Below are positions 25,410 to 51,674 of a DNA stretch of 64,000 nt, piece after piece (position 1 is the stretch's first letter; each line of letters opens with the position of its first letter). A program made the translations under genes and the position numbers. Below the pieces are notes generated by a model. The model saw only the letters and a program-made list of their open reading frames with translations. It was not told where the DNA came from and ran no database searches. Source of the stretch: Roseibium sp. Sym1 (GTDB lineage Bacteria > Pseudomonadota > Alphaproteobacteria > Rhizobiales > Stappiaceae); contig NZ_CP114786.1 of the NCBI RefSeq assembly GCF_027359675.1, positions 5,988,501 through 6,052,500 on the forward strand. Reading direction: 5' to 3'.

Positions 25410-26543
25410 TCAAAAATTCGGCTCGTCGAAATAGCGCAGCGGCATTTCCCAGATCACGACCTTCAGGTCGGACAATCCGGCAACCTCCTCCTTCAGGAAA
25501 CTCTCCATGGGTTTGAACGGCCCCTCGCCCTCCGCGGCAAGATTGATCAGGTCGGCCCGTGTCGCCGCCCGCAGTTGCGCCTCGAAGCTCCAGAGCGGAT
25601 TGGCCGAATAGCTCGACCCCACAAGGGCAACCTCGGGGCCCGCCTCCTCGTCGGCGAAGAGATCGTCCAGCCCCAGCTCCGCGGCCACCGCATCCAGGCG
25701 GGTAACCGGTTCAGCCGGCTGATCGAAATAGGGCGAAAACGCCGAGAACTCCGCGAAGTTGTAGAGGTCGCCCTTGTGGGCGATTTCCGGCTGAGGCTTC
25801 AGTTCGTAGGTTGTCTCTTTCAGTCCGGCCACATTTTCCAGCGTTGCGGCGACCGTATTGGCTGCCACTCCCGCGCCGAACACCGTCCAGTGGGTATCGG
25901 ATTTCAGGAAGACCTTTTCCTGCTCCCTGGCCGCCAGAAAGTCCCGCCGAAGGTCAGGCACCTTGAGATGCTCGATCGCCATCAGACGCCGGCGAACCGT
26001 TTCATAGTAGGTCGCGCGCATGGAAGGCTGTTCGATCTTGCCAAGCTGGTCACTGTAGATATCCGCCTTTTCCGGAATCAGGACGGCAACGACCGTGACA
26101 CCCTTGTGCGTGAGATCGAAGACCGTTTCCTCGACGAAGGCCAGGTGTTCATTGAGGGTCGCTGTCGATTCCCTGTTCCAGGTGAATTCCTCGTCAGAGA
26201 ACAGCCAGCCGTCCGTCCCCTTGACCAGGCCTTTCCGGGCTTCGTCAAAGACACCGAAGCTGATGGCATTCATCAGGCCGGTCGCAAAGTTCCTGATCGG
26301 AAATTCGTCCTTGAAGATTTCCTCAAGCGCCAGGGCCTCGCGCCCCTGGATAATGTCCTGAGCGCTCACCGGTTTTTGCCGGTGCTCCTGGAGTGCCTCG
26401 CTGTTCCAGAAATGCACGAAGGCGTAGATGCCGAACATGCACATGGCAGCGGAAAAGAATGTCGGCAGATACCTGACCGTTGTGGCCAGCGGATTGTCGT
26501 CCCGAACGGAAACGGCGCCGAGCATGATTTGACGGATATTCAT
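25410..26543 (-). CDS. algJ: alginate O-acetyltransferase AlgJ
   Basis: A 377-aa protein of the AlgX/AlgJ SGNH-hydrolase-like family. An N-terminal signal anchor lies at residues about 25-45 (RYLPTFFSAAMCMFGIYAFVHF in full). The acetylesterase triad is present: Asp216 and His218 in SDTHWT, and Ser311 in VGSSYSA. DGWLF at 111-115 is the usual AlgJ opening. AlgJ works in the periplasm with AlgI, AlgF and AlgX to O-acetylate mannuronate residues. It is the last gene of the long alginate unit, 18 bp after algI. Confidence 0.9.
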   Translation of the reverse strand: MNIRQIMLGAVSVRDDNPLATTVRYLPTFFSAAMCMFGIYAFVHFWNSEALQEHRQKPVSAQDIIQGREALALEEIFKDEFPIRNFATGLMNAISFGVFDEARKGLVKGTDGWLFSDEEFTWNRESTATLNEHLAFVEETVFDLTHKGVTVVAVLIPEKADIYSDQLGKIEQPSMRATYYETVRRRLMAIEHLKVPDLRRDFLAAREQEKVFLKSDTHWTVFGAGVAANTVAATLENVAGLKETTYELKPQPEIAHKGDLYNFAEFSAFSPYFDQPAEPVTRLDAVAAELGLDDLFADEEAGPEVALVGSSYSANPLWSFEAQLRAATRADLINLAAEGEGPFKPMESFLKEEVAGLSDLKVVIWEMPLRYFDEPNF

Positions 26544-26561
26544 GGGTCAGTCTCCGGGGCT

Positions 26562-27998
26562 TCAGAACTGGAAGTAAAGGAACGGCGTGTCGCTGTCGGC
26601 GACCAGCTTCAGGATGGCCAGGCCGCCGAGCACCGTGGCAACGAGTGCCATCGGCTGGGTGATCGGCGGATTGTCGATTTCCCCGCCCTTGACCAGCTCG
26701 TGTGTGCTTTTCAGCCGGAAGACCTGACGAAGCTGCCGTTCGCCAAGAGCGATAGCCACGCCGACCGCGAACAGGGCCAGCGAGAACCCGGTGAACTGCC
26801 AGGCATAGTCGCTTCTGAGCGCCAGGCCGTGGAACCCGAACATGCCCGACAGCATGTCCATGGCCTGCCCCATGGTTTCGGACCGGAAGAACACCCAGCC
26901 GATCACGAACACCAGGGTCGTCAGCAGCCAGTTGCCGACCCGGAAGGGAGCGCTGGCCTTGACGTTGAACAGACGCTCGATGATCAGCCAGAGCCCGTGC
27001 CACGCCCCCCAGACGATGAAGGTCATGTTGGCGCCATGCCACAGGCCGCCGAGCACCATCGTCGCCGCCAGGTTGACATAGGTCCGGCTTATGGAGATGC
27101 GGTTGCCACCCAGCGAAATGTAGAGGTAGTCGCGTAGCCAGGACGACAGCGAAATGTGCCAGCGGCGCCAGAAGTCGGTGATGTTGACCGAGGTGTAGGG
27201 CGCGTCGAAGTTTTCGACGAAGTAGAAGCCGACCATCATGGCCAGGCCGATCGCCATCGAGGAATAGCCTGAAAAGTCGAAATAGAGCTGGATCGAGTAG
27301 GCGATCGCGCCAAGCCAGGCTTCCGCCGCAGTCGGGTTCGGAATGGCGAACGCGGCGTCGGCGATAACGGCCGCGCTGTCGGCGATCAGAACCTTCTTGG
27401 CAAGGCCGGTCATGAACCGCACCGCGCCGTAATTGAATTTCGCAGGGTTGTGCGCCCGCGCGTAGAACTGCTCCTTGAGGTCGGCGAAACGCAGAACGGG
27501 GCCCGCGATCTGGTGCGGAAAAAACGCGATGAAGGCCGAGAAGTCGACAAAGCTGCGTGAAGGCGTCAGGTCGCGCCGGTAGACATCCACGAGATAACTC
27601 AGGTTATGGAAGATGTAGAAGGAGATCCCGATCGGCAGGATGACCTGCGGCAGAGCCCAGGCATAGGTCTCTCCACCGTTGAAGACATAGGAGACGCTGT
27701 CGGTGAAGAAGTTGAAATACTTGAAATAGAACAGCAGGCCGAGATCTGCGACCACCATGCCGGCGAGGATACTCAACCGGACACGGTCATTGTCCGATCT
27801 GAACATCTGCGCAACCGCGATGTAGTTCACCCAGGTGGTGAAGAACATCAGAAAGGCGAAGTCGATGCGCCACCAGGCATAAAACGCATAGGACAGAACC
27901 AGGATCACCCAGGAGCGAAACCTGTTCGGCGTCAGGTAGTAGCAGGCCAGGAACAGCGGCAAATAGGTGAAAATGAAAATGACCGAAGAAAACACCAT
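26562..27998 (-). CDS. algI: alginate O-acetylation MBOAT protein AlgI
   Basis: A 478-aa multi-pass membrane-bound O-acyltransferase of normal length. Conserved features are SYLVDVYRR, PHQIAGPVLR, DFSGYSSMAIG, FWRRWHISLSSWLRDYLYI and the catalytic His321 in LGGLWHGANMTF. It passes acetyl groups across the inner membrane to AlgJ/AlgX. It is followed closely by algJ and separated from the AGE isomerase gene by 124 bp, where a GCTCGC/GCGAGC hairpin lies. Confidence 0.93.
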   Translation of the reverse strand: MVFSSVIFIFTYLPLFLACYYLTPNRFRSWVILVLSYAFYAWWRIDFAFLMFFTTWVNYIAVAQMFRSDNDRVRLSILAGMVVADLGLLFYFKYFNFFTDSVSYVFNGGETYAWALPQVILPIGISFYIFHNLSYLVDVYRRDLTPSRSFVDFSAFIAFFPHQIAGPVLRFADLKEQFYARAHNPAKFNYGAVRFMTGLAKKVLIADSAAVIADAAFAIPNPTAAEAWLGAIAYSIQLYFDFSGYSSMAIGLAMMVGFYFVENFDAPYTSVNITDFWRRWHISLSSWLRDYLYISLGGNRISISRTYVNLAATMVLGGLWHGANMTFIVWGAWHGLWLIIERLFNVKASAPFRVGNWLLTTLVFVIGWVFFRSETMGQAMDMLSGMFGFHGLALRSDYAWQFTGFSLALFAVGVAIALGERQLRQVFRLKSTHELVKGGEIDNPPITQPMALVATVLGGLAILKLVADSDTPFLYFQF

Positions 27999-28122
27999 GG
28001 CCTAACTCTTTCCAAAACAACCGGTTTTCCTGGATCAGATCCGGGAAGCGGAATTTTCAAATTCGGCGTATCTCAGCCCAGGAGAGGCCGGTGCCGGTCT
28101 TGTACGCTCGCGCAGGCGAGCC

Positions 28123-29337
28123 TCACGCCGATTTCTTCAGTCCCTCGGCCGCGAGCAGGTCAAGCGTGTCCCGTGCCTCATGGATGGCGCAGACGATGTG
28201 ATAGAAGCTGCTTGCCGGGGCCGGTTCGTCGACAAAGGACCCGTCCGGTTTGAGCTTGTCGAACCAGAGGCCTCTCAGGGGCGTTTCGAAAAACTTGCCG
28301 AGTGCCTGGCAGGCCCTGACAGCTTCCCGCAGGTAGACCGACCGTTCCGCCATTCCGCTTTGCCGCGCCAGAATGCCGGCCGCCTTCAACCATTCGGTCT
28401 GCGGCCACAGCCGGGCGACCGGGTCCGAGACCGAGAAGTCGTCGTAAAGACCCATGAAGGCCACCTGCCGGTCTTCGCAGATGCCGTGGAACGTCCCGAT
28501 TGCAAAAAGCCGTTTTGCCTTTTCCAGCGCGTCGGCACGCCCTCGGCTTTCCCCCCAGCGGCACAGGAGCCAGGCCCATTCGAACTGGTGACCGGGTTCG
28601 ACAATCCTGCCCTTGTCGCCCTCGAAGGGGGCCCAGTCGTGATCGAAGAATTCCCGCAACGCGCCGGTATCCGCGTCTATGAACCGGGTCATGGCAAGCA
28701 GGGCAATCTCGTCCGCCAACGCGGTCCAGGGCGCAGGTTCGGCAGCGGCGGTTTCCCATGCCAGCGCGGCCTCGAACAGGTGCATGTGCGGGTTGGAACA
28801 CAGCGGCAGCTTGACCGGCACCGCTTCCTCGAATCCCAGTTGGGGGTGCGCGTAAGTCGCCTTCAGCGCGGCCAGAAGCGCCCGCGCCTTTTCCTCCATC
28901 TCCGCCTGCCGCTCCGGAAACGCCGCGCCGAATTCAGCGAAGGCGAACAGGGCGAAGGCCTGGTTGTAGAGATCGAAGCCGTCGTCGATCAACTCTCCGT
29001 CCGGTGAAGCCAGATTGCCGTAGAAGCCATCCGAACGACGATAGACCTTCTCGAACAGGTCATAGGCATCCCGGGACGCGGTGCGCCAGTTCCCGGTCCA
29101 GCCGCGCGCGCCGGCCGCCGCGTAGCAGTAGATCTGCCGGGGTTGAACGCGGGCACGGCGATTGTCCGTGGTGCTCGGCTGTCCGTCCTGCCGGATCCTT
29201 TCCTGAAAACCGCCATGAACGGGATCACAGCCGGCATCAAGCCAGAGTGGGAGGGCGGCATTCGTCAGCCAGTCCTCCAGTTTTTCGACCTCCCGGCCGA
29301 ACGCTACCGACTGCAGTTCACATTCTGAATCAACCAC
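28123..29337 (-). CDS. AGE-family sugar epimerase/isomerase, probable mannose-(6-phosphate) isomerase
   Basis: A 404-aa alpha/alpha-barrel protein of the N-acylglucosamine 2-epimerase superfamily. The catalytic histidines lie in NPHMHLFEA and EPGHQFEWAWLL, and the C-terminal TEWLKA segment is conserved. GTG at 29337 has AGGAG eight bases upstream; a TTG at 29343 is closer to it and less likely. Family members isomerise mannose and fructose or epimerise N-acyl sugars, and a rhizobial member has been described as a mannose-6-phosphate isomerase. Inside an alginate locus whose AlgA has a degenerate isomerase domain, it probably supplies mannose 6-phosphate. This is inference from context. Confidence 0.78.
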   Translation of the reverse strand: MVDSECELQSVAFGREVEKLEDWLTNAALPLWLDAGCDPVHGGFQERIRQDGQPSTTDNRRARVQPRQIYCYAAAGARGWTGNWRTASRDAYDLFEKVYRRSDGFYGNLASPDGELIDDGFDLYNQAFALFAFAEFGAAFPERQAEMEEKARALLAALKATYAHPQLGFEEAVPVKLPLCSNPHMHLFEAALAWETAAAEPAPWTALADEIALLAMTRFIDADTGALREFFDHDWAPFEGDKGRIVEPGHQFEWAWLLCRWGESRGRADALEKAKRLFAIGTFHGICEDRQVAFMGLYDDFSVSDPVARLWPQTEWLKAAGILARQSGMAERSVYLREAVRACQALGKFFETPLRGLWFDKLKPDGSFVDEPAPASSFYHIVCAIHEARDTLDLLAAEGLKKSA

Positions 29338-29364
29338 GGGCAATACTCCTGAAAATACAGATAC

Positions 29365-30762
29365 CTACTGCTTTGTCTTCAGATAGGAGGACGCAAACGG
29401 ATCGCCGCTCGCCGCAGCCATCTTGAGATATTTCAAGGCGGTGGCCTGGTCGGCTCCCCCGTTGCCGTTCTCAAAGAGATCCACACCGAGTTCGTACTGG
29501 GACTTGGTGTCGCCGGCATCGGCCGCCTTGCGCAGCCACTTGCGGCTTTCCGACACGCTTGCCGGCTTGGCACCCCCGATCGAATAGATCGAACTCAGCG
29601 CCCTCGCGGCGGAGACATTGCCTTTGTTGGCGGCGGACGCGACGGCGGAATAGAGCGTGTTTGCCGCTCCGCTGCCCGCGCGGGCGCGCTGCAGCCGCTT
29701 GATCATCACCTCAAGCGCTTCCGACTTGCCGCCGGAATAGGCCTTGACCAGATAGCCCGCGATCGCGTCGTCATTTCCGCCGGTCTCGATGAAGAGGTTC
29801 GCCAGAACTAGGGCGGCGTCCGCGTTGCCGTTGCGCGCCGACTGCTCGAGAGGCGCGATGATCGCCCGGCGCGCCTCCTCCGACTTGGCGGCGCGATATT
29901 CGCGCGAGATCCGGCCCTGGGGCAGGACATTGCTGATGCCGGCCGCCGAGGCGACTTCCTGCAGGTAGGCGCCGTCCTTGCTGCCGCCCGTCGTCCGGTA
30001 GACCCGCGCTGCCAGTTGCCCGGCGCCCTTTTTGTCCAGCCTGCGTGCCTGTTCCATCCAGGCATGTGCGATCCTGGTGTTCTGCCCTACGCCCTGACCA
30101 AGGTAGTACACCCGCGCCTGGCGGAGGGCCCGGTCGCTCTTCGAAATCCGGTCGTTCCTGGCGTAGTATTTGGCCGCGAGTTTGATATTGCCTGCCCTTT
30201 CGGCATTTTCAGCAAGCTCGCGGGAAGCTGTCGTGGAGCCCTTGCCGGCTGCCCTTTGCAGCCAGTAGCTTTCGGATTTGAACTCGGCACCGCGCACCTT
30301 GCCCTTGCCGACAAGGTCTGCCATCAGCAAGTTGGCCGAAACGCTCGATCCGCTGTTGGCGGCGGGAAGATAGACTTCCCTGGCAACCTTGTTCAGGTTC
30401 GACGGACGGTACTTGCCGTCGATCTGCCCCTTAATCAGCCGGTTCTGGGAAGAGGTGTCACCGGCCAGCGCCGCCTTTTCAAAGGCCTGATAGGCGCTGC
30501 GGGTCTTGCCGCGCTCCTGCAGATACTTGCCGTATTCACGGTTGTAGTGCTGGATATCGGCCTTGGACGTCGCCTTGCTGGCGGCGATCGCAAGAAGCTG
30601 TTCGGGACTGTTCGGCGTTTTCACGCCGGCCTTGCCGTGGGCGATGCTGATCTTGGCTTCCCGATAGGCAGAATCCGGATTGCCCTGACACGCTGCGAGC
30701 AGCATGCCGGCGCTTCCCAAAAACAAGACAAGCCAAGCGTTTGCTTTGATACGATTAGCCAC
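29365..30762 (-). CDS. algK: AlgK-like Sel1/TPR lipoprotein
   Basis: A 465-aa lipoprotein with a helical repeat solenoid. The lipobox LLAAC places the lipidated Cys at residue 25. Sel1-type repeats run through the rest (for example SESYWLQRAAGKGSTTASRE, SRKWLRKAADAGDTKSQYEL, ALKYLKMAAASGDPFASSYL). Size, lipidation and repeats match Pseudomonas AlgK (475 aa), the periplasmic outer-membrane scaffold that localises the AlgE porin. Start is GTG at 30762 after GGAGTGGGGAA. Its place late in the operon differs from Pseudomonas, where algK follows alg44. Confidence 0.75.
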   Translation of the reverse strand: MANRIKANAWLVLFLGSAGMLLAACQGNPDSAYREAKISIAHGKAGVKTPNSPEQLLAIAASKATSKADIQHYNREYGKYLQERGKTRSAYQAFEKAALAGDTSSQNRLIKGQIDGKYRPSNLNKVAREVYLPAANSGSSVSANLLMADLVGKGKVRGAEFKSESYWLQRAAGKGSTTASRELAENAERAGNIKLAAKYYARNDRISKSDRALRQARVYYLGQGVGQNTRIAHAWMEQARRLDKKGAGQLAARVYRTTGGSKDGAYLQEVASAAGISNVLPQGRISREYRAAKSEEARRAIIAPLEQSARNGNADAALVLANLFIETGGNDDAIAGYLVKAYSGGKSEALEVMIKRLQRARAGSGAANTLYSAVASAANKGNVSAARALSSIYSIGGAKPASVSESRKWLRKAADAGDTKSQYELGVDLFENGNGGADQATALKYLKMAAASGDPFASSYLKTKQ

Positions 30763-30839
30763 TTCCCCACTCCAATCCCCAAAAGGTGTTCATTTCAGTT
30801 TGTTCTTCTCGGCGGTTCGCCCGCTCATGCCAGGACGCC

Positions 30840-32270
30840 TCACGCGGCCGCGTCCTGGTCGAAGGACACAAGCAGGCCGAGCCCGCGCTCCAGCAGGCGG
30901 TTGCATGTCTCGACGTCGGAAGCTTCCACGTAGCAGCGCATTTCCGGGGCATTCCCCGACGGCCGGAAATGCATGACCGAACCGTCTTCAAGGGTGATCC
31001 TCATGCCGTCGAGCGCGTTGACCGAGGCAGGCGTTCCGACCGGTTCGACAAAGCTGGCCACATTGCCCTCATCGGCTGAGAGCCAGGCCATGATCGCCGC
31101 GCTTTTTTCCTGCGGAAACTCCTGCAGCCTGTCGGCCGCCGTAGCGTTCAGTCCAAGCGACGCCGTGACCTTTGAGAGCGGCAGGCCGCTTTGAACCGTC
31201 GTCGCCAAAACGGCGAGGATGGGCAGGAAACAGTCGCGGGTCGGAAGCGGTGCCAAAACGCCGCCGGCAACCTCGAATTCCGATGCCGTCAGCGTTCCGC
31301 CATTGGCCTCGAAACCGACGATGCGGGCGTCGGCGGAGCCGGTTTCCGCGTCCATGCCGGAAATCACGAAGGGGGAGCCCACTTTGGTTCTCACCACCTT
31401 TCCGGAAATCTTCGCGTCGATGCCGGAGTTGGACGTGACCGGTGTCACCACCCGGTTGGCCTTGAGAAACAGGGCCACCAGAAGACCGCAGATATCGCCG
31501 TTGACCGGTTCCCCGGTTTCGTCGGCAACCAGCGGCCGGTCGCCGTCGCCATCCGCGGAGACGATGGCGTCAAGTTCATGCGCACGCGCCCATTCCCTCA
31601 GGGCGGCGCGTGTCTCGGCTGAGACGGCTTCCGTATCGACCGGGATGAATTCTTCGGAGCGGCCGAGGAGAACGGTCTGCGCGCCATAGAATTCGAGGAT
31701 CTCGGCAAGCATGTCCCGGGCAACCGTCGAATGCTGGTAGACGCCGACCTTCAGCCCTTTCAGCGCTCCTTCGGCCAGGAGCGACCGGTTGCGCTGCAGA
31801 AACAGCGCGACAGCCTCGGCGCCGTGGTCTTCAGACGTTGCCTCCCCCTCCAGGCTCCCGGGGGCCTGAATGCCGTCGGCAAGTGCGGTTATCGCCTGCT
31901 CGTCCGCCTTGCCGATTTCACCGGTCGGCAGATAGAACTTGATGCCGTTCCTGTCCGCGGGAATATGCGATCCGGTCACCATCATGGAGGCGGCGCCGAG
32001 CTTTATCCCGTAAAAGGCCAGCGCAGGTGTCGGCAGGGTTCCGCAATCAACCGGGATCATCCCGGCCGAGCGGACCGCGCGCTTGACATTGGCCGCGATT
32101 GCCGGACTGGACTCACGGAAGTCGTACCCGATCAGCACCCGGCTGCCGGGACCGGCAAGACCTTCGTCCAGGAGGTATTTCGAAAATGCTGCGGCATAGA
32201 CAAAGGACGGGCTGCCGACCAGATCGGCGGAAAGACCACGAAGACCGCTTGTGCCAAATTTCAAACTCAC
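30840..32270 (-). CDS. phosphomannomutase (AlgC/ManB type)
   Basis: A 476-aa alpha-D-phosphohexomutase. The four family loops are present: FGTSGLRG at the N-terminus, the phosphoserine loop TGSHIPADRNG (Ser101, in place of the common TASHNP), the metal loop SADGDGDRP (Asp240, 242, 244) and the phosphate-binding RPSGNAPE near the C-terminus. Start is GTG at 32270 behind AAGGAG. It converts mannose 6-phosphate to mannose 1-phosphate for AlgA. In Pseudomonas algC is outside the alginate operon, whereas here the mutase is built in, so the locus carries the complete route to GDP-mannose. Confidence 0.88.
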   Translation of the reverse strand: MSLKFGTSGLRGLSADLVGSPSFVYAAAFSKYLLDEGLAGPGSRVLIGYDFRESSPAIAANVKRAVRSAGMIPVDCGTLPTPALAFYGIKLGAASMMVTGSHIPADRNGIKFYLPTGEIGKADEQAITALADGIQAPGSLEGEATSEDHGAEAVALFLQRNRSLLAEGALKGLKVGVYQHSTVARDMLAEILEFYGAQTVLLGRSEEFIPVDTEAVSAETRAALREWARAHELDAIVSADGDGDRPLVADETGEPVNGDICGLLVALFLKANRVVTPVTSNSGIDAKISGKVVRTKVGSPFVISGMDAETGSADARIVGFEANGGTLTASEFEVAGGVLAPLPTRDCFLPILAVLATTVQSGLPLSKVTASLGLNATAADRLQEFPQEKSAAIMAWLSADEGNVASFVEPVGTPASVNALDGMRITLEDGSVMHFRPSGNAPEMRCYVEASDVETCNRLLERGLGLLVSFDQDAAA

Positions 32271-32305
32271 GGGAATCTCCTTAAACAATACACTGTGATT
32301 TCCGA

Positions 32306-33406
32306 TCAGTTTCTGAAGTCGATGTTGTAGACGGCGCTGATGCGCCCGCCCAAAGACGACGAATACAGGGGGTCCACATAGAGCCCGCCGTATTTCGCCC
32401 GGTCTTCCGGGTATTTCATGAGATAGACTTCGAGCCAGGCGATCCGGTCTCCCCGGATCAGGCCGTTTTCCTCGCGCGGCAGCTTCACCTGCCGTTCGCC
32501 GCTGAGCTCTTCCATGCGGCTGGGATCGGCAATCGAATCGAGCGAAAAGCGGACGAGCCTTCGCAGCGCGTTGCCACACAGGGAATAGGCTTCATAGCCG
32601 TTGGCCTCGGTCAGGGACGCCAGCATGAGCAAGGGCGCCAGGGCATGGAGGTGGTAATCGCGGGCCTTCTTCCTGCGATCCAGCTCCAGAGGCAACGCGC
32701 CGTCTGCGGTCACCTGGCAGACGCCCAGCTTGTAGCTGTCATAACCGAATTCGAGCAGGTCCTTCCGGCCGACAGCCACACCGACGGCGGCCACTGCGAA
32801 GCCGCCCCAGTAGCGATGGTTCTGCCTGTTGGACCGGCGGTCGCCGGATTCGGTGTAAACGGGAATGGTGGCCTCGGCGAGCCGGACGAGCCACTTGTCG
32901 ATTTCGGCGGTGTCGAAGTCCAGCAGCCGAACCGCTGGACGAACCTGCATGTACGCCACCGCGCTGCCCGCAATGATACGGGTCATGCTCAGGAAGGACT
33001 GCCGCGTTTTCAGATCCGACAGCGCGTCTGCCCGAGCCCAGAGATCCAGGGCCGCAAGAGCGCACGCGGCGTCGTCCAGCCGATTGCCGTCGGTCTGGGT
33101 GTAGTTGCTTGCGTTCTTGGTGACGAAGCTGAGATAAGCACGCGTATCCTTGATGGCGGCCTGGTACCGGCGCTTGTTGTCCGGATCGATGGTCGACCGG
33201 CTTTCATCCGCTGAACTGTAGATGCTGCCCAGTTCAAGCGTTCTGACCGGCTGGGGCAGTTTTTCTGAACAGCTTGTCTTGCCGTTATTGTCTTCCACAC
33301 TGCGTGCGAGCGGAAACGGAACGCTGAACCCGCTCGCGGATGCCGAAGATCCCATCAGTGCCACCACTATGGAAAACATCATCAATTTCATTGATTTAAG
33401 CGTCAT
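32306..33406 (-). CDS. algL: alginate lyase family protein, PL5 (AlgL)
   Basis: A 366-aa PL5-family lyase of usual length with a signal peptide ending near ASAS. The SRSTIDP region, CALAALDLWARADAL, NHRYWGG, the LPLELDRRKKARDYH segment with Arg and Tyr, and the C-terminal AWLE are conserved with Pseudomonas AlgL. Two catalytic-region differences stand out: the conserved SKY Lys is replaced (SIYSS at about residues 61-65), and the NNH motif reads QNH. In Pseudomonas AlgL clears stray alginate from the periplasm. This copy may be weak or changed in specificity. Confidence 0.85.
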   Translation of the reverse strand: MTLKSMKLMMFSIVVALMGSSASASGFSVPFPLARSVEDNNGKTSCSEKLPQPVRTLELGSIYSSADESRSTIDPDNKRRYQAAIKDTRAYLSFVTKNASNYTQTDGNRLDDAACALAALDLWARADALSDLKTRQSFLSMTRIIAGSAVAYMQVRPAVRLLDFDTAEIDKWLVRLAEATIPVYTESGDRRSNRQNHRYWGGFAVAAVGVAVGRKDLLEFGYDSYKLGVCQVTADGALPLELDRRKKARDYHLHALAPLLMLASLTEANGYEAYSLCGNALRRLVRFSLDSIADPSRMEELSGERQVKLPREENGLIRGDRIAWLEVYLMKYPEDRAKYGGLYVDPLYSSSLGGRISAVYNIDFRN

Positions 33407-33478
33407 TTCTCTGCCTTGATCTCCTGCAATCCGTCCGGGTTACGCTCTTGTTCGGAGGTACGCGGCTTTCCTTTGCCC

Positions 33479-36325: not shown

Positions 36326-36365
36326 TTTTCTTGACCCCCAACCCGAACGGGTTTGTTTTCCCTGA

Positions 36366-37019: not shown

Positions 37020-37036
37020 GTTCTAATCCTCGAAAA

Positions 37037-41460: not shown

Positions 41461-41463
41461 CGG

Positions 41464-44400: not shown

Positions 44401-45216
44401 TTTGGTGAAGGCGAGCCTTGACAGCTCTACCTTTTCAGATACCGGGGCGTTGGTCAGAACCTCGCCCAAGGCCCGCATGACTTCCGGTGCGTTCAGCAGA
44501 CTCGCCTTTTGGGCGGCTTCGCCGACGAGCTCGCGCCGTTCGGCCGCAGTCTCCAGAAGACCAAAATAATAGGGAACGAAATCCGCATAGGTTTCCGCAG
44601 CCAGATCGACAAGACCGTCTTCTGCGAACCGTGCTGCCAGTTCGATGGCAAGCCGTGCGGCTTCGATATCACCCAGATAGTCCAGGATCAGCGCGTAGCT
44701 GACTTTCAGCCGCTCGATTCTATCCTCCGCGAACAGAGCTCCGTCGGACTCGACCAGGACGGCGAGCGCGGCCTTGCCCGCGGCGTCGGCCGTCAGGTCG
44801 TTCGCTAGCAGATCAGCATGGATCTGTGCCGCTGCCGCGGCGAGCTCGCTTTGCAGGCCCACACCGGCAAGCTGCGAGGCGCGTTCCAGACTTTCAATAC
44901 GCGCGACCTCGCGGAAAATCTCGAAATAGGCGTCAAACCCTTGTTGTGTCGGATCTTCCTGCAACACCTTCCAGCGCGCGATCGCGACCTCGGCGCCGAA
45001 TTTGAGGTTGTCGACCGTGACATCCTTCTCCGTCGGCGCAAGCTGGCGCCGCCCGGGCAGCAGCTCGTTTTCGGTGAGCTCCTGGGCAAACGCAGACCCG
45101 TCCGCACCGAGCGGCAAATATCCCGGCAGCCCGCAGGCGCATGCCGCAAAGGTGCATCCAAGGAGCAAAGCCCGATATGCAGTCGAAAATGCCATGTGAC
45201 CGTTAAACCTCAACAC
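41464..45216 (-). CDS. algG: mannuronan C5-epimerase AlgG fused to a large N-terminal helical domain
   Basis: A 1250-aa protein, more than twice the usual AlgG length (about 540). Residues about 730-1250 are the AlgG right-handed beta-helix, with the catalytic DPHD at 985-988 (GLDPHDWSYN), followed by KKHGIIISREVDDSYIVGN and many N-x-(A/G)-x-G-x turns. Residues about 45-690 are helix-rich and lack a recognised motif; they resemble a TPR/HEAT-type solenoid. A signal peptide ends near AFA-QE. Start is GTG at 45216, preceded by GGGAGCTGAGGG; the internal ATG at 45195 has no good ribosome site. It epimerises mannuronate to guluronate in the polymer during export. Confidence 0.87.
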   Translation of the reverse strand: MLRFNGHMAFSTAYRALLLGCTFAACACGLPGYLPLGADGSAFAQELTENELLPGRRQLAPTEKDVTVDNLKFGAEVAIARWKVLQEDPTQQGFDAYFEIFREVARIESLERASQLAGVGLQSELAAAAAQIHADLLANDLTADAAGKAALAVLVESDGALFAEDRIERLKVSYALILDYLGDIEAARLAIELAARFAEDGLVDLAAETYADFVPYYFGLLETAAERRELVGEAAQKASLLNAPEVMRALGEVLTNAPVSEKVELSRLAFTKLDPAYLVGQLETAEGARRTTLQAWIHGVQMVSGAPPTDLAGDLFERASATANFVAFELVYAAQQDRTARKKLLEQSLGEDIGAGRPLLAFQKLNNLPLGPEDVLPVYLALIESFADHGYGTYVALLADEVAAAVSAGSISLDDVHMSSLFAALETVPDNARIDRLVEALPGTAALGERAKLRGSIRRIFAGPVDRPVGAAPIAVPSGSSGALSAAADLIGGKLVPGDAGSAPAEDLDLLAKVAERLWHYRAHRKVLADFVASETDPVLRQVVALGVTANPAFDVTGPKGAAVAAGIEALLPSLAPSHIKDLLGASIGDVDEEAIPRGQTLVRYARYLASKGEKLDVGVAETETEKRGLLEARAVFNGASEMTGMLKEVPDYLDRVRAFHRLAAARADVLDSKGWLNGAVRTEAAGPMVPEFSPNGVASDGRLTLKTSGDSDFSGTRTPFMPNLLTGPEAVTSSVPVPEHRNLLGALASIAKRGETRATRLVRFSSEHYDGLINLGAREYVFLNTGSSTPRIIFISQGVLTASELVSQIQASDPDAITFEDGIVTLNVPLAINEGAELILSGLEIKEFRLNTNKGAFLVNSGRLFVDRVTVSSFDEETGKPSFVTDGGKKPMFRPFLLSWSNSRTFASSSHFVALGYAGGRTYGLSLSAGPSDAVSKRLHSEPPTGTFINNSFDNLYYGFYTYEAEDVVYVGNELVNGVIYGLDPHDWSYNLMMAYNAAYGTQKKHGIIISREVDDSYIVGNLSFENKGSGIMLDRMSFGTIVFANDASHNKGDGFAAMESPCVLVDSNYFAGNRRAGVKIRNSWDVHVANNIVAGNRAAGVEAYIDNLRAADASEFRNFKKDPFLPVATLSAVRNQISDNAVGVAIRGATEGMYFQNRFIDQAPKYASGDIKPLAIDVVSRSMSNGVQVRSACVPKITIEKSCSLFQKGIIYSHVAQAPYRGADAAENFCVDVAGTPQANSFNSAGVE

Positions 45217-45224
45217 GCTTTCCC

Positions 45225-46199
45225 TCAGCTCCCTGCCCGGTATGGCCAGAGCATCCGGTTGTCCCAGAAAGGCCGTTTGAACTGGACGACAAGAGGTTCG
45301 CCATCCGGCACCTCTTCATCCTCGGGAAGCTGAAACTCGATTTCCGCGAGCACGGTTCCGGTCTCGTCCGAAACCAGTTGGTTGCGGCTGGCATAGCGGC
45401 CGTACGAGCCGGGGATCGTTATCGTTTTGCCCGAAAGCGTGAAGGTGACTGTCACTTCCGGGGCTCCCAGGGCCGCCACGATCTCTTCCGGCCTGACGAA
45501 CGCGGCGACATAAGGCCTGGCGTCTTCCTCGGACACCCGCACCAGCGCCTGCCCCTTGCGCACGAAGTCGCCATTGCTGACCGCAACGCTCGAGACGACA
45601 CCGTCCGTCGTCGCCTCCAGGAACTTGGCGTGGCCCGTCGGCGTCTGGAGGGCGGCAAACATTTCGCCGTCCGCGAGGTTGCCCTCGTTTTTCAGGTAGG
45701 TCACTTCCCCGGTCGTATGTGCCTCCAGCGGCGCGCCGGGAAAGGCGACATAGGCAAGCTGAGCCGTGATGGTCGCGCTCTTCTGGGTGAGCAGGAACGA
45801 GATCAGCACGATCATGGCAACGGCAACCGTTCCAAGCATGGCGATCTTGCCAAGCTGCAGAACTCCGGACCGCCTGCGTTCCGAAACGACGGCCTGATCG
45901 TCGAATTCGGCGGCAAAGGACGAGGCCGCTCCGATCCGCCATTTCAGCACGCTGGCGACCCGCTTGAGTTCGGATTTCGGTCCGGTGAAGACAAGGCGCA
46001 TTTGCTCGTCGGCGCGCTCCGCGCGGATCTGTGCCCGGCCCTTCCAGACATAGTCCGCGCGGTGGACCTCGATATCGGCCTCGCCCTGGTAGCCGATGAG
46101 CGCCGGCTCGAGCGGCACGACGAGGGCACCCGCGGCGACGCCAAACAGGGGCAGCCGCGCACCGTCGATCTCAATGGCTGTATCCGAACCGAAATTCAT
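45225..46199 (-). CDS. second Alg44-like protein: degenerate N-terminal domain, TM helix, HlyD-like domain
   Basis: A 324-aa protein with the same layout as Alg44: a cytoplasmic beta-rich domain (residues 1-110), one TM helix (about 116-138) and a periplasmic HlyD/biotinyl-lipoyl-like domain (ATTDGVVSSVAVSNGDFVRKG is the typical barrel turn). Unlike the true Alg44 encoded at 47773-48822, the N-terminal domain has neither RxxxR nor (D/N)xSxxG, so it should not bind c-di-GMP. ATG at 46199 is the first residue of the conserved part. It lies 19 bp after algA and 8 bp before algG. It may pair with Alg44 in the membrane. Confidence 0.75.
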   Translation of the reverse strand: MNFGSDTAIEIDGARLPLFGVAAGALVVPLEPALIGYQGEADIEVHRADYVWKGRAQIRAERADEQMRLVFTGPKSELKRVASVLKWRIGAASSFAAEFDDQAVVSERRRSGVLQLGKIAMLGTVAVAMIVLISFLLTQKSATITAQLAYVAFPGAPLEAHTTGEVTYLKNEGNLADGEMFAALQTPTGHAKFLEATTDGVVSSVAVSNGDFVRKGQALVRVSEEDARPYVAAFVRPEEIVAALGAPEVTVTFTLSGKTITIPGSYGRYASRNQLVSDETGTVLAEIEFQLPEDEEVPDGEPLVVQFKRPFWDNRMLWPYRAGS

Positions 46200-46218
46200 T
46201 TCCAAAGCGCCTTTCCGT

Positions 46219-47721
46219 TCAGGCAAACCGGGCCGCGGCAGCGGCCAGCTCGACTTCGGCCACCTGCGGAAACCAGTCTTCAATCGCGTGGTCGAGATCG
46301 GGACTGCTGCGCACATAGGTGAATTCGGCGTGACCGGTCGTGTTGCGGAGCGTGACCACCTGCCCTTCGCTGAAGGACACCGGAACACCCGGCAGGAACG
46401 GCTTGAAGGTACCGTCCTCGCTGTATTCCGCGGATCCGTCGCCGTGGATCATCCAGACCTCGTGCGCCGCGCCGGCAACCCGGTAGGTGATCGGAACGTG
46501 CTTCTTGATGGTGACGGCGCAGACCTGCCCCCCCTCGAAGGTGCGATCGATGCTGACCGTGCCCCAGGTGCGCGTCGCGCTGCGGCTGTATTTCACCTGT
46601 TTGGCATTGGTTGCCTTCAGGGTCTTGACGATGTCCTTGACGCGTTGCGCCTGATGCCGGGGCAGAACGACGACAGTGTCCTCGCTGTCGATCACGACCA
46701 TGTCCTCGACATGTCCGAGCACCACCTTGCGCCCGGCCTGGGAATGGACAAAACAGTTGCGGGCTTCGGTCACCAGCGTGTCACCGACCAGCACGTTGCA
46801 ACTCTCCTCGTCGTCCTTGTCGCTGATTTCCCAGAGCGCGGACAGGGACCCGATGTCGGCCCAGTCGATATCGTTGCAGGGCACCACGGCGACGCAGTCG
46901 CTTTTCTCCATGACCGCGATGTCGATGGGAACGTCATCGGGGCAGCGCGCGAAATCCTCGGCGCACGGCATATGGACGACATGGCTGGCGAACGGCCGGT
47001 TCTCACCGTTTCTTATCGCGCGGGACGTTGCTTCATGGGTCTCAGGCGCATGTTTGCGCAATTCGTCTGCCAGCACGGAGGCCTTGAACAGGAAGATGCC
47101 CGCGTTCCAGTAATACCCTGCCTCCACGAACTGCTCGGCCCTCTCCCGGTCCGGCTTTTCCAGAAAACCGCCGGGCTGGCGCACCAGCGCGCCGATCTCG
47201 ACACCGTTGAGGAGATAGGGATCGGCCGGACGGATATAGCCGAAGCCCGTTTCCGGCGCCTTGGGAACGATGCCGAAGGTGACGATCTTTCCGTCCTCGG
47301 CGATCGGAATGGCGCGTTCGACAGCAGACACGAAGTTCTCGGGCTTGCCGACCACGTGGTCGGCTGGCATGGCCAGCACCAGGGCTTCAGGGTCCGTCGC
47401 GGCAAGTTTCAGGGCAACCACCGCCAGAGCGGCGGCCGTGCCGCGCTGAAGCGGCTCCAGAATGATGCCGTCATAGGCGCTGCCGACCTCATCCGCCTGG
47501 GTGTCCACAAGGTCCACGAAGGACTGTGTGGTCAGGAACCAGGGATTGGTGAAAACCGGATGGTCCACCCTCGAAAGAGTGTTTTGGAACAGGCTTTTTT
47601 CGTTGGTAAGGCGCAGGAACTGCTTGGGCATGTTGCTCCGGGAAAGCGGCCACAGACGCGACCCGGTTCCGCCAATCATGATTGCGGGTACAATTTTTCT
47701 CGAATTTACCAATTCAACCAT
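46219..47721 (-). CDS. algA: mannose-1-phosphate guanylyltransferase AlgA with degenerate isomerase domain
   Basis: A 500-aa type II enzyme. The N-terminal nucleotidyltransferase is intact: GGTGSRLWPLSR at residues 17-28, EPLQRGTAAALA, MPADHVV, PETGFGYI and FLEKPD. The C-terminal cupin (from about 370), which in AlgA is a mannose-6-phosphate isomerase, is altered. Where Pseudomonas has QMHHHRAEHW, this protein has ITYRVAGAAHEVW, losing most metal ligands. It should make GDP-mannose but probably not mannose 6-phosphate. It follows alg44 by 51 bp. Confidence 0.88.
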   Translation of the reverse strand: MVELVNSRKIVPAIMIGGTGSRLWPLSRSNMPKQFLRLTNEKSLFQNTLSRVDHPVFTNPWFLTTQSFVDLVDTQADEVGSAYDGIILEPLQRGTAAALAVVALKLAATDPEALVLAMPADHVVGKPENFVSAVERAIPIAEDGKIVTFGIVPKAPETGFGYIRPADPYLLNGVEIGALVRQPGGFLEKPDRERAEQFVEAGYYWNAGIFLFKASVLADELRKHAPETHEATSRAIRNGENRPFASHVVHMPCAEDFARCPDDVPIDIAVMEKSDCVAVVPCNDIDWADIGSLSALWEISDKDDEESCNVLVGDTLVTEARNCFVHSQAGRKVVLGHVEDMVVIDSEDTVVVLPRHQAQRVKDIVKTLKATNAKQVKYSRSATRTWGTVSIDRTFEGGQVCAVTIKKHVPITYRVAGAAHEVWMIHGDGSAEYSEDGTFKPFLPGVPVSFSEGQVVTLRNTTGHAEFTYVRSSPDLDHAIEDWFPQVAEVELAAAAARFA

Positions 47722-47772
47722 TTTCCAGTCTCCAATAAAAAACGAGTTCGCGCCCCCCCGGATGCTCCCCCC

Positions 47773-48822
47773 CTAGCGCCAGGGCGCCATGTCGAAAACC
47801 GCGTAAACGGGCTGTCCGATCATCGAGGGGTCGAGCCGGGTGCCCGCGTCAACGACGACTTCAAGCTGCGTCGCCGTGTATTCGCTGATTTTCGGAACAG
47901 CCAGGATCTCAACGCCATCCACCTTGGTGCCGTCTAGGTAAGTCAATGAAATAGCTGGATTTTTAGAAAGTGTTTCCAGTCTGCGGAACGGAACGCGCAG
48001 GGTCACGTGCGGTTGCGCATCCTTTGGCACCAGGTTGAACACCTGGGCGCCGGCCCGACCGAAATAGGAGCCCTGCGGCCGTGCCTGCTGCAGGACATAG
48101 CAGTCGCAGGGGGAGATGATGTCGACCACCCTGTTGCCATCCAGATCCGGCGCATCAAGCGTGACGGTGGCCAGTTTCTGACCCGGTGTCACCTCGCGCG
48201 GCAGGTCCGCGACCTCGACCACCCCGTCCCGCGGCTGGTAGACGGTCACGACGTCCGACGAGACGCTTGCGGAAATCGCCTCGAAGGTGAACAGCCGCTT
48301 GTAGACGACATCGAACAGAAACAGGAACGCTGCGATGCCGACAACCGCGAAGATTGCCAGGCCGAAAATGCGTCCGGCCAGGCCGCTCTGCCCGGATGAC
48401 GGAGCCGAGGCGACGACCGGCGACTTGATGCTTTCTGTTTCGGACATGGTGTTTCCCATTACGTAGATGTTCGTGTCTTGCTGAACCACGCGGCCGGCCA
48501 GGTAGAGGTCGGCAAAGTCGGACAGGGGTGCGGTCTTGTGCGCATCGTCGAGGATCTCGAGACCGGCCCGTCCTTCGTCCGGGTTGCACCAGACCACTCG
48601 TGTGGCGAGGGGAAGTTCGAGCACCGATCCGTTGGTCTCCAGGAGAACCGTGACGGTCAGGGTGCCGGGCACCTGCAGGGGAGCCGGCAGGTCGGCCAGT
48701 CCCAGTCCCGCAGCCGACCAGTCGCAGACCGTGACAGTTTCGCCGTCGATCCGTGCCTTCAGCGGAACCTTGTAGCGCGGGAACTGCCGGTCCGGGCGCT
48801 TTGCCTTAGCCACAGCACTCAT
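47773..48822 (-). CDS. alg44: alginate polymerase regulatory subunit Alg44 (PilZ - TM - HlyD-like)
   Basis: A 349-aa co-polymerase. Residues 1-100 form a PilZ domain with both c-di-GMP signatures, RQFPR (12-16) and DWSAAG (34-39). One TM helix lies at about 152-171, followed by a periplasmic HlyD-like domain (VYQPRDGVVEVADLPREVTPGQ). The ATG at 48822 overlaps the alg8 stop as ATGA, tying it to its catalytic partner. Polymer synthesis should therefore depend on c-di-GMP, as in Pseudomonas. No cyclase or phosphodiesterase gene is in the window. Confidence 0.92.
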   Translation of the reverse strand: MSAVAKAKRPDRQFPRYKVPLKARIDGETVTVCDWSAAGLGLADLPAPLQVPGTLTVTVLLETNGSVLELPLATRVVWCNPDEGRAGLEILDDAHKTAPLSDFADLYLAGRVVQQDTNIYVMGNTMSETESIKSPVVASAPSSGQSGLAGRIFGLAIFAVVGIAAFLFLFDVVYKRLFTFEAISASVSSDVVTVYQPRDGVVEVADLPREVTPGQKLATVTLDAPDLDGNRVVDIISPCDCYVLQQARPQGSYFGRAGAQVFNLVPKDAQPHVTLRVPFRRLETLSKNPAISLTYLDGTKVDGVEILAVPKISEYTATQLEVVVDAGTRLDPSMIGQPVYAVFDMAPWR

Positions 48823-50351
48823 GGAAAGGTCCTTTCCGAGACGCGCGGCATCCGCGGCGGCTGCTCTGACGTTGTGTAGTTGTGCATGTTCGACAGGAGC
48901 ACCAGCACCGAAACGAAGACCAGCAGGGCCACGGTGTTGATCAGGTGCGACGACCATTCCTTGAAGCGGGCCTCGAAGGCACTGTCGGTCTTCTTGAGCG
49001 CGGTCTTCTGCCGGGTCCATTTCTGCCTGTCGAGCCGGAAGAAGATGATCACCTTCACCAGGGACCCGAAGATCTGGTTGAAATAGAGAAGCGGAATGTA
49101 GACGAGGTTGATCGAGGGCCTGACCGTCAGGAAGGTGAGTGCCAGCAGGTAGCGCGAGACCGCCACCCAGAGCATGTAGAACGCGAAGGTCCACGGCGTG
49201 ATGAAGGCAGTCCCGAGCAGGGCCAGCGTAATGCCCGACAGGCTGGTCCACATGGAGATACGCTGATCGAGGATGGACCACCAGGTGAAGGCACCGATCT
49301 TCACGGGGCCGAGCTGCAGCGCGCGGGAATTGGTGCGCAGCATGTTGCCGAACCAGCGCGTCATCAGGGCGTAGGCAGACTTCAGGAAGTTCGGATCGGG
49401 CGGCTGCTCGATGGTTTCGACCTGGACATCCGGCACGTAATACATCTTGTAGCCATTCTTCAGCAGCCAGAACCAGCTCGACTTGTCGTCACCGGTCAGC
49501 ATCTTGATGCGGCCGAGACGCCAGTGATGGATGTAGTCGTTCTGCACGTGATCGATGAACTCGGGACTGCAGGCGACCTCGGCGCGGAACATGGACATCC
49601 GTCCGGTGAGGGTCAGAACCCGCTGGGCGAGTCCGTGCGAGGACATCAGGATCTGCCGCTGCGCAAACCGCATGGAGTACCATTGCTTGAAGATCTCGGC
49701 GCCTTCGACGGTGCAGACTTCGTCCGTCGTGAGCGCCCCGAGCTGCGGGTCGATCTGGAACAGGCAGGCGCATTTGCGGACAAGATCCGGCGGGATGATG
49801 CTGTCGCCGTCGATCACCGACACTGTGTCGGCGCGCGCCGGATTGTAGGCCGCGATTGCCCGGAAGCCATGTGCCAGCGCGTCCCGCTTGCCGGTTCCGG
49901 GAATGCGCACGATTTCAAGTGTGAAAGGCAGTTTCTCGCCGTACATGACCTCGGCAAGGCGGCGAATGAGCCGCTCGTCGCCCAGTTCGACAATCGAGCA
50001 GACCACGGTTGCGCCCGCCGGTGCCTCGGCCGCGGCGATGAACGCCCCGCGATAGACCTTGGCAGTGGTCGGCGCATCGATCCGGAAGCTTGTGATCAGG
50101 AAAAACGCATGGCCGTACCCTTCAGCATCGGCCGTCCGTTCCGCGAGCTTTCGTGTACGCGGGAAACGGACCAGCCGGAACCAGAGGCTTCTGACCAGGT
50201 GTACCAGGCCCCAGGACCAGCGCCACATGCCGATGACGCCGACCAGGAGAATGGCATTCCGTGATTTTTCGTCAAAGGCGATGTCCGGCAAAAGCACTGC
50301 GCACAGCGCAATTGCCAGGACAAAGATGACGTGGGTCAGAATGGCGACCAT
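48819..50351 (-). CDS. alg8: alginate synthase catalytic subunit Alg8
   Basis: A 510-aa processive family-2 glycosyltransferase with TM helices at both ends. The catalytic set is visible: DGD at residues 181-183, TGDD at 286-289 and the product-binding TRW at 331-333. Length and order are close to Pseudomonas Alg8 (494 aa). It polymerises mannuronate from GDP-mannuronate at the inner membrane. It lies 6 bp after algD and is translationally coupled to alg44. Confidence 0.92.
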   Translation of the reverse strand: MVAILTHVIFVLAIALCAVLLPDIAFDEKSRNAILLVGVIGMWRWSWGLVHLVRSLWFRLVRFPRTRKLAERTADAEGYGHAFFLITSFRIDAPTTAKVYRGAFIAAAEAPAGATVVCSIVELGDERLIRRLAEVMYGEKLPFTLEIVRIPGTGKRDALAHGFRAIAAYNPARADTVSVIDGDSIIPPDLVRKCACLFQIDPQLGALTTDEVCTVEGAEIFKQWYSMRFAQRQILMSSHGLAQRVLTLTGRMSMFRAEVACSPEFIDHVQNDYIHHWRLGRIKMLTGDDKSSWFWLLKNGYKMYYVPDVQVETIEQPPDPNFLKSAYALMTRWFGNMLRTNSRALQLGPVKIGAFTWWSILDQRISMWTSLSGITLALLGTAFITPWTFAFYMLWVAVSRYLLALTFLTVRPSINLVYIPLLYFNQIFGSLVKVIIFFRLDRQKWTRQKTALKKTDSAFEARFKEWSSHLINTVALLVFVSVLVLLSNMHNYTTSEQPPRMPRVSERTFP

Positions 50352-50357
50352 ATCGAT

Positions 50358-51674
50358 TTACCAGACGAGGCCTTCGTAGTGGACACCTTCCGGTGCCTCG
50401 ATCGGCAACCGGACGAGATCGACGATGCTCGCCCCTCCCCGCGCATTCTTGAGGGCTTCGCGGATCTGGTCGTTCTTGATGCCGATGATGATCGTGTCCA
50501 CTTCGGACGTGACCTCATCCGCGGAGCTCTTGATGAAGTCCGCCAGGTGCGGGACGAAATTGCGGCCGCCATCGTCGATCGCGGACACGTTCGGATCGTA
50601 GATCGACAGCTTGTGGCCCTTGCTCATCAGGCGCTCGGCGAGCAGGACCAGCGGGCTTTCCCGCAGGTCGTCCGTGTCGGGCTTGAAGGTCAGGCCGAAC
50701 ATGCCGACCTTCCGGGCACCGCCGCGATTGACCAGGCGGAAGGCCCGGTCCAGCTGGTATTCATTGGCTTCGACCGCGGCATCCAGCACCGGCGTCGAGA
50801 TGTTGTGGACCTTGCCGAAATGGCGCAGCGCCCGCAGATCCTTCGGCAGGCATGAACCGCCATAGGCGAAGCCGGGCTTCATGTAGGCCCGGGAGATGTT
50901 CAGCCGCGTATCCGCGCAAAGGACATCCATGACGACATGGCTGTCGATACCGACGGACTTGCACAGATTGCCGATCTCGTTGGAGAAGGAAATCTTGACG
51001 GCATGCCAGCAGTTGTTGGTGTATTTGACGATCTCGGCGCTGCGGATCGGAATGACATGTGGCTTGACCGGGATCTGCGCGCAAAGGGCCATGAGCGCTT
51101 TGACGGACTCTTCGTCGTCCTCGTATTTGCCGAAAACGATTGCCCCCGGTTCGTAGTAGTCGGAGATCGCGGTGCCTTCACGCAGGAATTCCGGATAGTA
51201 GGCAAGCCCGATATCCGTGCCGACCTTCTTGCCGGAGGACTTTTCCAGCGCCGGAATGACCTCGGCTTCCACGGTGCCCGGAAGAATTGTCGAACGCATC
51301 ACGACGATGTGCCGGCCTTCCTTCTCGCGGATCGCTTCGCCGATCTGCTCGGAGACAAGCTTCACATAGCCGGTGTTGAGCGACCCATCCTCCTGGCTCG
51401 GAGTGCCCGTGCAGCAGAACGAGACGTCGGTTTCAAGGACGGCTTTCTTGAAGTCGCTGGTCGCCGACAGCATGCCGTTGTCGACGCCGGACTTGATCAG
51501 TGCGGACAGGCCCGGCTCATAGATCGGAGAGTTGCCCGCAGAAATTGCATCGACCTTGTAGCTGTCCGGATCGACCGCGACCACTTCAAAACCGTCCTTC
51601 ACAAGACAGCCGGCAGATACGCAGCCCACATAGCCAGCACCGAAAATGCTTACCTTCAACTTCTTCTCGTTCAT
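50358..51674 (-). CDS. algD: GDP-mannose 6-dehydrogenase
   Basis: A 438-aa UDP-glucose/GDP-mannose dehydrogenase (Pseudomonas AlgD is 436 aa). The Rossmann motif is GAGYVG (residues 12-17), the catalytic Cys275 is in GGSCLPKD, and the C-terminal domain has GLTFKPDTDDLRESP. ATG at 51674 has GGAG eight bases upstream; an in-frame start at 51695 is further from the site. It oxidises GDP-mannose to GDP-mannuronate, the committed step. It is the first gene of the operon, behind the long regulatory region. Confidence 0.93.
   Translation of the reverse strand: MNEKKLKVSIFGAGYVGCVSAGCLVKDGFEVVAVDPDSYKVDAISAGNSPIYEPGLSALIKSGVDNGMLSATSDFKKAVLETDVSFCCTGTPSQEDGSLNTGYVKLVSEQIGEAIREKEGRHIVVMRSTILPGTVEAEVIPALEKSSGKKVGTDIGLAYYPEFLREGTAISDYYEPGAIVFGKYEDDEESVKALMALCAQIPVKPHVIPIRSAEIVKYTNNCWHAVKISFSNEIGNLCKSVGIDSHVVMDVLCADTRLNISRAYMKPGFAYGGSCLPKDLRALRHFGKVHNISTPVLDAAVEANEYQLDRAFRLVNRGGARKVGMFGLTFKPDTDDLRESPLVLLAERLMSKGHKLSIYDPNVSAIDDGGRNFVPHLADFIKSSADEVTSEVDTIIIGIKNDQIREALKNARGGASIVDLVRLPIEAPEGVHYEGLVW

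Follow-up and report, generated by a model that had tools for sequence, protein, structure and literature searches.

An alphaproteobacterial alginate operon with large helical proteins and no detectable AlgE

In Pseudomonas, alginate leaves the cell through AlgE, a beta-barrel of the outer membrane. The operon order in Pseudomonas and Azotobacter is algD-8-44-K-E-G-X-L-I-J-F-A. Many further genomes contain putative alginate clusters, according to a paper that also gives an AlgE model (PMC4444821), and another study describes 'atypical' alginate operons in deep-sea bacteria that have lost algKE (Bundalovic-Torma 2020, PMC7112194). Here we analyze an alginate operon of the alphaproteobacterium Roseibium sp. 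Sym1, which lies on a 64,000-nucleotide stretch of contig NZ_CP114786.1 (positions 5,988,501 to 6,052,500) that we call the window. Sixteen genes on the minus strand, read in one direction from 51674 to 25410, make up an alginate system with conserved motifs and without an AlgE-type barrel. A sequence-only reading of the window had noticed both the named alginate genes on one strand and the missing barrel, and Pfam and NCBIfam scans, BLAST comparisons and inspection of motifs confirm it. On balance we favor the view that the operon is genuine and probably functional, with an acetylated, epimerised alginate as its product, and that the lineage exports the polymer without AlgE.

An AlgE homologue elsewhere in the genome would have changed this picture, and a search of the whole genome returned none, either with the PF13372 profile (no match at E <= 10) or with a Pseudomonas-type AlgE query (best match at E 0.48 and 11 bits, which is noise). 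The query was taken from genome G429 and matches solved AlgE structures at E 5e-248. By these two sequence tests the genome is without detectable AlgE. With the same query none of 20 alphaproteobacterial genomes matched better than E 0.2, and all three gammaproteobacterial controls did. We read the alginate clusters of 20 alphaproteobacterial genomes, the window included, three of them in part (G300, a 24 kb locus ending in the phosphomannomutase gene; G120, a 10.4 kb contig; and G273, with its alg8 end on a separate short locus), and saw no AlgE near the alginate genes in any. As a positive control, full-length AlgE lies about 4 kb from alg8 in 11 of 11 genomes of the gammaproteobacterial family f87, probably Pseudomonadaceae. 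When AlgE was compared by tblastn with the loci collected, matches appeared only in Pseudomonas-type loci and in G540. The PF13372 profile stayed below its cut-off in all five other alginate-positive Roseibium genomes and in the alphaproteobacteria G441, G568 and G661. Because the alginate genes of relatives are also without an adjoining AlgE, the polymer probably leaves the cell by another route.

It is unlikely, in our estimate, that a dedicated AlgE-like barrel encoded elsewhere has diverged so strongly that sequence searches overlook it. AlgE-type proteins do diverge (the weak, alg8-linked one of G540 scores only 30.8 bits), and PF13372 proteins not linked to alginate genes occur in G285, G301, G039, G036, the alphaproteobacterium G653 (39.8 bits) and G648, where the protein is a strong match (239 bits) that the other two genomes of its family, f94, do not have. 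Separate contigs of a draft assembly may, moreover, still be close together. In favor of export without AlgE, PF13372 was found on the Alg8 contig in none of 30 genomes with an Alg8-like gene; four of the 30 have it above the cut-off on another contig, and many have an Alg8 match of only 34-39% rather than a full alginate cluster. Against such a barrel, two independent queries gave only noise in the window genome, AlgE is linked in all 11 Pseudomonas-type controls, and the unlinked G285 protein falls in a family of Bosea, Labrys and others, with no alginate gene in the 20 kb around it. That protein was itself rejected as an alginate pore, given its position on another contig, its non-alginate neighborhood and the lack of a match in the Protein Data Bank (PDB). 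It has many relatives in Bosea, Labrys and others (locus L042), and 'alginate export' may be a misleading name for PF13372 proteins of its type.

The clusters without AlgE share large helical proteins. A large Sel1 protein like Sel1_A, of roughly 900 residues (about 880-960), is present in 19 of the 20 alphaproteobacterial clusters, the remaining one (G120) being cut off; the best match of the G661 protein is Sel1_B. All three f94 clusters likewise encode a Sel1 protein, of 863-909 residues and with an N-terminal lipobox by eye, where the Pseudomonas-type cluster has instead a 469-residue AlgK together with AlgE. Two layouts can be told apart. In 12 genomes AlgG is long (>1000 residues), two large Sel1 proteins being seen in 11 of these and a second adaptor in nine; in the other eight AlgG is short (about 450-550 residues), the operon contains a single large Sel1 protein, and a small helical protein is also encoded. 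The sequence-only reading had placed the giant Sel1 proteins and an AlgG fusion where AlgE would be. The giants are present, but the slot itself is otherwise filled: a Pseudomonas-type cluster has algK (named by position) and algE between alg44 and algG, whereas the window has algA and an HlyD-like adaptor there, and its giant Sel1 proteins follow algG.

The extension of the window AlgG is an additional helical solenoid of about 600 residues. An AlphaFold model of AlgG residues 40-790 (32 sequences; mean pLDDT 82, pTM 0.77) is a solenoid of about 30 helices whose only two strands, each three residues long, lie in a linker; confidence is low at both ends, and Foldseek comparison with the PDB gave generic superhelix matches, none at E <= 0.001. 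The Sel1_A model (22 sequences; mean pLDDT 86.6, pTM 0.58) is also helical, without even a three-residue strand, and its best Foldseek matches are Sel1 proteins. As both models are helical, no barrel is hidden in the AlgG extension or in Sel1_A, and this candidate was dropped. Sel1_B resembles Sel1_A in composition, its PDB sequence matches are mostly Sel1 proteins, and it matches AlgK at E 1e-9 over residues 768-862; Sel1_A, too, matches AlgK in part. A barrel of the BcsC/PgaA type attached to a Sel1 or TPR protein was not seen in Sel1_A or the AlgG extension, judged by their models, nor in Sel1_B, judged by composition and PDB matches. The small gene of the eight short-AlgG clusters was considered as a small barrel and rejected, all eight products looking helical and Sel1-like by eye; the three that were scanned had no Pfam match. 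A score combining strand propensity and moment set three known or Pfam-assigned barrels apart from AlgK and the Sel1 proteins. We give this score little weight because it is home-made and flags some cytoplasmic and inner-membrane proteins, with high moments for the second adaptor and the phosphomannomutase.

Helical proteins can themselves form pores: Wza is an alpha-helical outer-membrane pore for capsules, the pore being a short amphipathic helix. In a Wza-like manner, the AlgK-like lipoprotein or one of the giant Sel1 proteins might oligomerise into an outer-membrane pore, an arrangement that we consider improbable. The AlgE-less clusters have a large Sel1 protein as their constant component, and a lipobox such as that of the three gammaproteobacterial copies speaks for the idea, but Sel1_A is modelled as a superhelix similar to soluble Sel1 proteins, and most of the alphaproteobacterial copies inspected by eye begin with an ordinary signal peptide, that of the window being ambiguous.

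Genes beside the clusters bear on whether the product is exported. Of 14 alginate-positive genomes, 10 have a single PL7 lyase, located no more than about 5 kb from the cluster; four alginate-negative Roseibium have none. Since PL7 lyases adjoin 10 of the 14 clusters, the gene neighborhoods suggest that the polymer reaches the outside. The PL7 lyase of R. aethiopicum (the one scanned with Pfam) has RTX repeats, G285 encodes an RTX protein of 1473 residues that contains a pectate-lyase-like epimerase domain, and type I secretion ABC transporters like that of R. aethiopicum are found in the loci of seven clusters, its own included. Because RTX proteins are substrates of type I secretion, these operons seem to be accompanied by enzymes that act on extracellular alginate. 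Type I secretion genes adjoin the relatives' clusters L055, L040, L087, L047, L049, L054 and L044, often with a PL7 lyase; L040 also has an RTX epimerase-like protein.

That the cluster makes no exported alginate, being silent, decayed or producing a periplasmic product, appears very improbable. Such clusters were found in only six of 87 genomes of the family, which makes the cluster an accessory trait. However, the reading frames are open throughout the operon and the motifs kept, the gene order is maintained in Rhizobiaceae at about 50% AlgG identity, and PL7 lyase and type I secretion genes adjoin the relatives' clusters. An absence of exported product would have undone the sequence-only reading; nothing points that way in view of the PL7, type I and RTX genes of relatives, the window genome itself having no PL7 lyase.

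In the working that we propose, Alg8 would polymerise GDP-mannuronate under the control of cyclic di-GMP (c-di-GMP), which would switch Alg8 through Alg44. The chain would be modified by AlgG, AlgX, AlgF, AlgI and AlgJ and would pass along a periplasmic scaffold of large alpha-solenoids, made up of Sel1_A, Sel1_B and the AlgG extension, together with the AlgK-like outer-membrane lipoprotein. It would then exit through an outer-membrane channel encoded elsewhere and common to other cargo. A possible, still tentative, candidate for this channel is a TolC-type protein to which the extra HlyD-like adaptor would connect; another general outer-membrane barrel is an alternative guess. TolC-family genes lie at three places in the window genome. 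An extra TolC in alginate-positive Roseibium was considered and rejected, six positive genomes having 5-8 domain matches and 17 negative ones 3-10. The BBP2_2 barrel was also rejected as alginate porin; it is present in 11 of 12 alginate-positive and also in four of four alginate-negative genomes and so is a core gene. A BcsC-type barrel was dropped as well, BcsC_C exceeding its cut-off in none of 16 genomes. The sequence-only reading had export proceed through a different or distant outer-membrane protein: its first half, the absence of AlgE, held when the genome was searched, and no replacement channel emerged for the second.

Several observations weigh against export without AlgE by this scheme. 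The exit channel was not found among the barrel families checked (PF13372, BcsC_C, BBP2_2 and TolC), and a barrel that has diverged strongly can escape the sequence tests. All 23 Roseibium genomes examined have TolC-family genes, the alginate-positive ones no more than the others, and neither this family nor BBP2_2 is tied to alginate, both being present in alginate-negative congeners. Alg44 and the second adaptor do not match each other significantly, and the 465-residue AlgK-like protein had no AlgK match in a PDB search or in BLAST to the Pseudomonas-type AlgK. A PL7 lyase was looked for and not found in the window genome, G155, G187 or G120. The clusters also vary: G187 and G285 showed no algX, algF, algI or algJ, G661 no algI or algJ, and G349 no algD within 40 kb. 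Alginate production and export are predicted here from the genes.

The operon is ordered, 5' to 3', algD, alg8, alg44, algA, HlyD-like adaptor, algG fusion, Sel1_B, algX, algF, Sel1_A, algL, phosphomannomutase, AlgK-like Sel1 lipoprotein, AGE-family epimerase, algI, algJ (Table 1). Nine of these genes (algD, alg8, alg44, algA, algG, algX, algL, algI and algJ) match the Pseudomonas-type cluster L141 by BLAST, at 25-46% identity. As in the Pseudomonas-type system there is an Alg8/Alg44 synthase pair with a PilZ receptor and an AlgG epimerase with a DPHD motif; the AlgX/AlgJ/AlgI/AlgF acetylation set is present, AlgF falling slightly below its Pfam cut-off. The motifs of Alg8, Alg44, AlgG, AlgX and AlgJ are conserved. 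Alg44 is 26% identical along its length to the Pseudomonas-type protein and has one membrane segment (by eye), its C-terminal part being periplasmic. The AlgG fusion is 1243 residues long in the protein database, with its ATG start at 45195, and scores 269 bits against the NCBIfam equivalog cut-off of 700 (NF038177). A lipobox was recognized by eye in the AlgK-like protein of the window and in six of eight other alphaproteobacterial rows. Two genes were overlooked by the sequence-only reading, namely the second adaptor, which has orthologues in five of five Rhizobiaceae loci, and a PL5 lyase just outside the operon. Counterparts of this lyase adjoin five of five Rhizobiaceae clusters, on the opposite strand there, and one is also found in Roseibium album.

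Table 1. Coordinates in the window of the alginate operon genes and of the adjoining lyase
Feature	Position	Strand	Evidence
algD, GDP-mannose dehydrogenase	50358..51674	-	Pfam UDPG_MGDP_dh domains; 46% to Pseudomonas-type AlgD
alg8, mannuronan synthase (GT2)	48819..50351	-	Pfam Glyco_tranf_2_3; 45% to Pseudomonas-type Alg8; DGD, GDDK motifs
alg44, c-di-GMP receptor (PilZ)	47773..48822	-	Pfam PilZ; RQFPR, DWSAAG motifs (RxxxR, DxSxxG)
algA, GDP-mannose pyrophosphorylase	46219..47721	-	Pfam NTP_transferase and ManC beta-helix; 37% to AlgA, residues 10-439
Second HlyD-like membrane-fusion (adaptor) protein	45225..46199	-	Pfam HlyD_3, E 5e-6
algG fused to N-terminal helical solenoid	41464..45195	-	NCBIfam AlgG E 7e-80 over 785-1145; PDB AlgG E 2e-63; DPHD motif
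Sel1_B, 998-residue Sel1-repeat protein	38464..41460	-	Pfam Sel1; signal peptide by eye
algX, acetyltransferase (start codon uncertain)	37037..38467	-	Pfam ALGX; DVHW, GTSY motifs
algF	36366..37019	-	Pfam AlgF PF11182, 33.1 bits, just below cut-off 34.4
Sel1_A, 948-residue Sel1 superhelix	33479..36325	-	Pfam Sel1; AlphaFold model helical
algL, PL5 alginate lyase	32306..33406	-	Pfam Alginate_lyase E 5e-37
Phosphomannomutase (AlgC role)	30840..32270	-	Pfam PGM_PMM I-IV
AlgK-like Sel1 lipoprotein	29365..30762	-	Pfam Sel1; lipobox LLAAC by eye
AGE-family epimerase/isomerase	28123..29337	-	Pfam GlcNAc_2-epim E 2e-86; PDB cellobiose and GlcNAc 2-epimerases
algI, MBOAT acetyltransferase	26562..27998	-	Pfam MBOAT; 46% to AlgI
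algJ	25410..26543	-	Pfam ALGX E 3e-62; 36% to AlgJ; DTHW, GSSY motifs
Second PL5 alginate lyase, adjoining operon	52475..53695	-	Pfam Alginate_lyase E 4e-33

The mannose-6-phosphate isomerase (PMI) cupin histidine motif (H-x-H/R-R) was not found in the window AlgA when its sequence was compared with the Pseudomonas-type AlgA. Since AlgA is without this motif and an AGE-family gene lies in the operon, the AGE-family enzyme may supply the isomerase activity in place of that half of AlgA. A rhizobial ManA belongs to the AGE family.

The protein database assigns near relatives of the AlgG fusion and of Sel1_A to Roseibium (Stappiaceae, Hyphomicrobiales). An Alg8-like match occurs in 26 of the 87 genomes of the family, and the context identifies alginate clusters in the six mentioned above: the window, G331 (90% Alg8 identity), G349 (65%), and G341, G353 and G342 (about 50%). 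The remaining 20 have only a 33-36% match, which represents a different synthase; in the one context read (L092, genome G330) the distant Alg8 relative is accompanied by an MBOAT acetyltransferase, a Sel1 protein and a PilZ-HlyD protein, without algD or algG, and by its gene content this is a putative acetylated-polymer operon. Another 19 genomes of the genus, all without an alginate cluster, have synthases at the same identity. The gene order of the window is kept in four Rhizobiaceae and Roseibium album, and as far as the phosphomannomutase gene in a fifth Rhizobiaceae genome, G300; the epimerase is present in G297. Some rhizobial copies are plasmid-borne by their source names (Rhizobium sullae, R. 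etli 8C-3), and for this reason the cluster may move between strains. Small gammaproteobacterial clusters (L130-L135, from G648, G654 and G720) have algD, alg8, a PL5 lyase and a Sel1 lipoprotein of about 900 residues, and two of the three also have an alg44 match. A PL14 lyase is present too (the scan covered G648), whereas algG and a linked AlgE are missing.

We built an Alg8 tree from 34 rows, among them 18 of the 20 alphaproteobacterial clusters and eight of the 11 f87 genomes; G300, G120, the second alg8 of G543 and broken alg8 rows were left out. The nine AlgE-linked rows form one side of a branch (100/100), corresponding to one change, and a single gain of AlgE in the Pseudomonas line is as simple an explanation as a single loss. 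Because the root is a midpoint root and some branches are long (the program warned of long branches that meet), the tree is no proof of a gain. We regard it as conceivable, albeit doubtful, that AlgE was a late addition in the Pseudomonas line to an older export in which a giant Sel1 superhelix spans the periplasm without a dedicated porin, with a different exit borrowed or formed, and that Rhizobiaceae, Roseibium and some gammaproteobacteria continue to use this older form.

In the textbook alginate machine AlgE is the final component, and a cluster that keeps the enzymes without the pore makes a direct test possible. The question raised is how a charged polymer might get through the outer membrane when no dedicated channel is linked to its genes, as cellulose seemingly does in some alphaproteobacteria. 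The clusters also suggest alginate production in rhizobia and Roseibium and offer a new source of alginate enzymes.

Compared with the Pseudomonas/Azotobacter operon, the window has in common the synthase, the c-di-GMP receptor, the epimerase, the lyase and the acetylation proteins, and it keeps a putative Sel1 lipoprotein. It differs in having no AlgE, an AlgG with the solenoid extension, two giant Sel1 proteins, an extra HlyD-like adaptor, an AlgA without the PMI histidine motif alongside an AGE-family enzyme, and the phosphomannomutase inside the operon. Pairs of a PilZ-HlyD protein and a GT2 synthase in alphaproteobacteria (L092, L093) similarly place distant Alg8 relatives in loci without an AlgE match, but have no AlgG and, for L092, no algD. 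The alphaproteobacterial cellulose operons without BcsC that are described in PMC7112194 are likewise synthase-dependent systems without a linked outer-membrane pore, although their polymer and accessory proteins are different. No description of AlgE-less alginate export in alphaproteobacteria, of the present clade or of its replacement proteins was found among titles and abstract openings, within an incomplete coverage of the literature. Relative to the atypical algKE-less operons, as the available text of PMC7112194 presents them, the window keeps and enlarges AlgK-related Sel1 proteins, and that text names neither the present clade nor the giant Sel1 proteins nor the AlgG fusion. Alginate operons without AlgE are known; what is new here is that its absence is systematic and goes together with large helical proteins that recur among the clusters.

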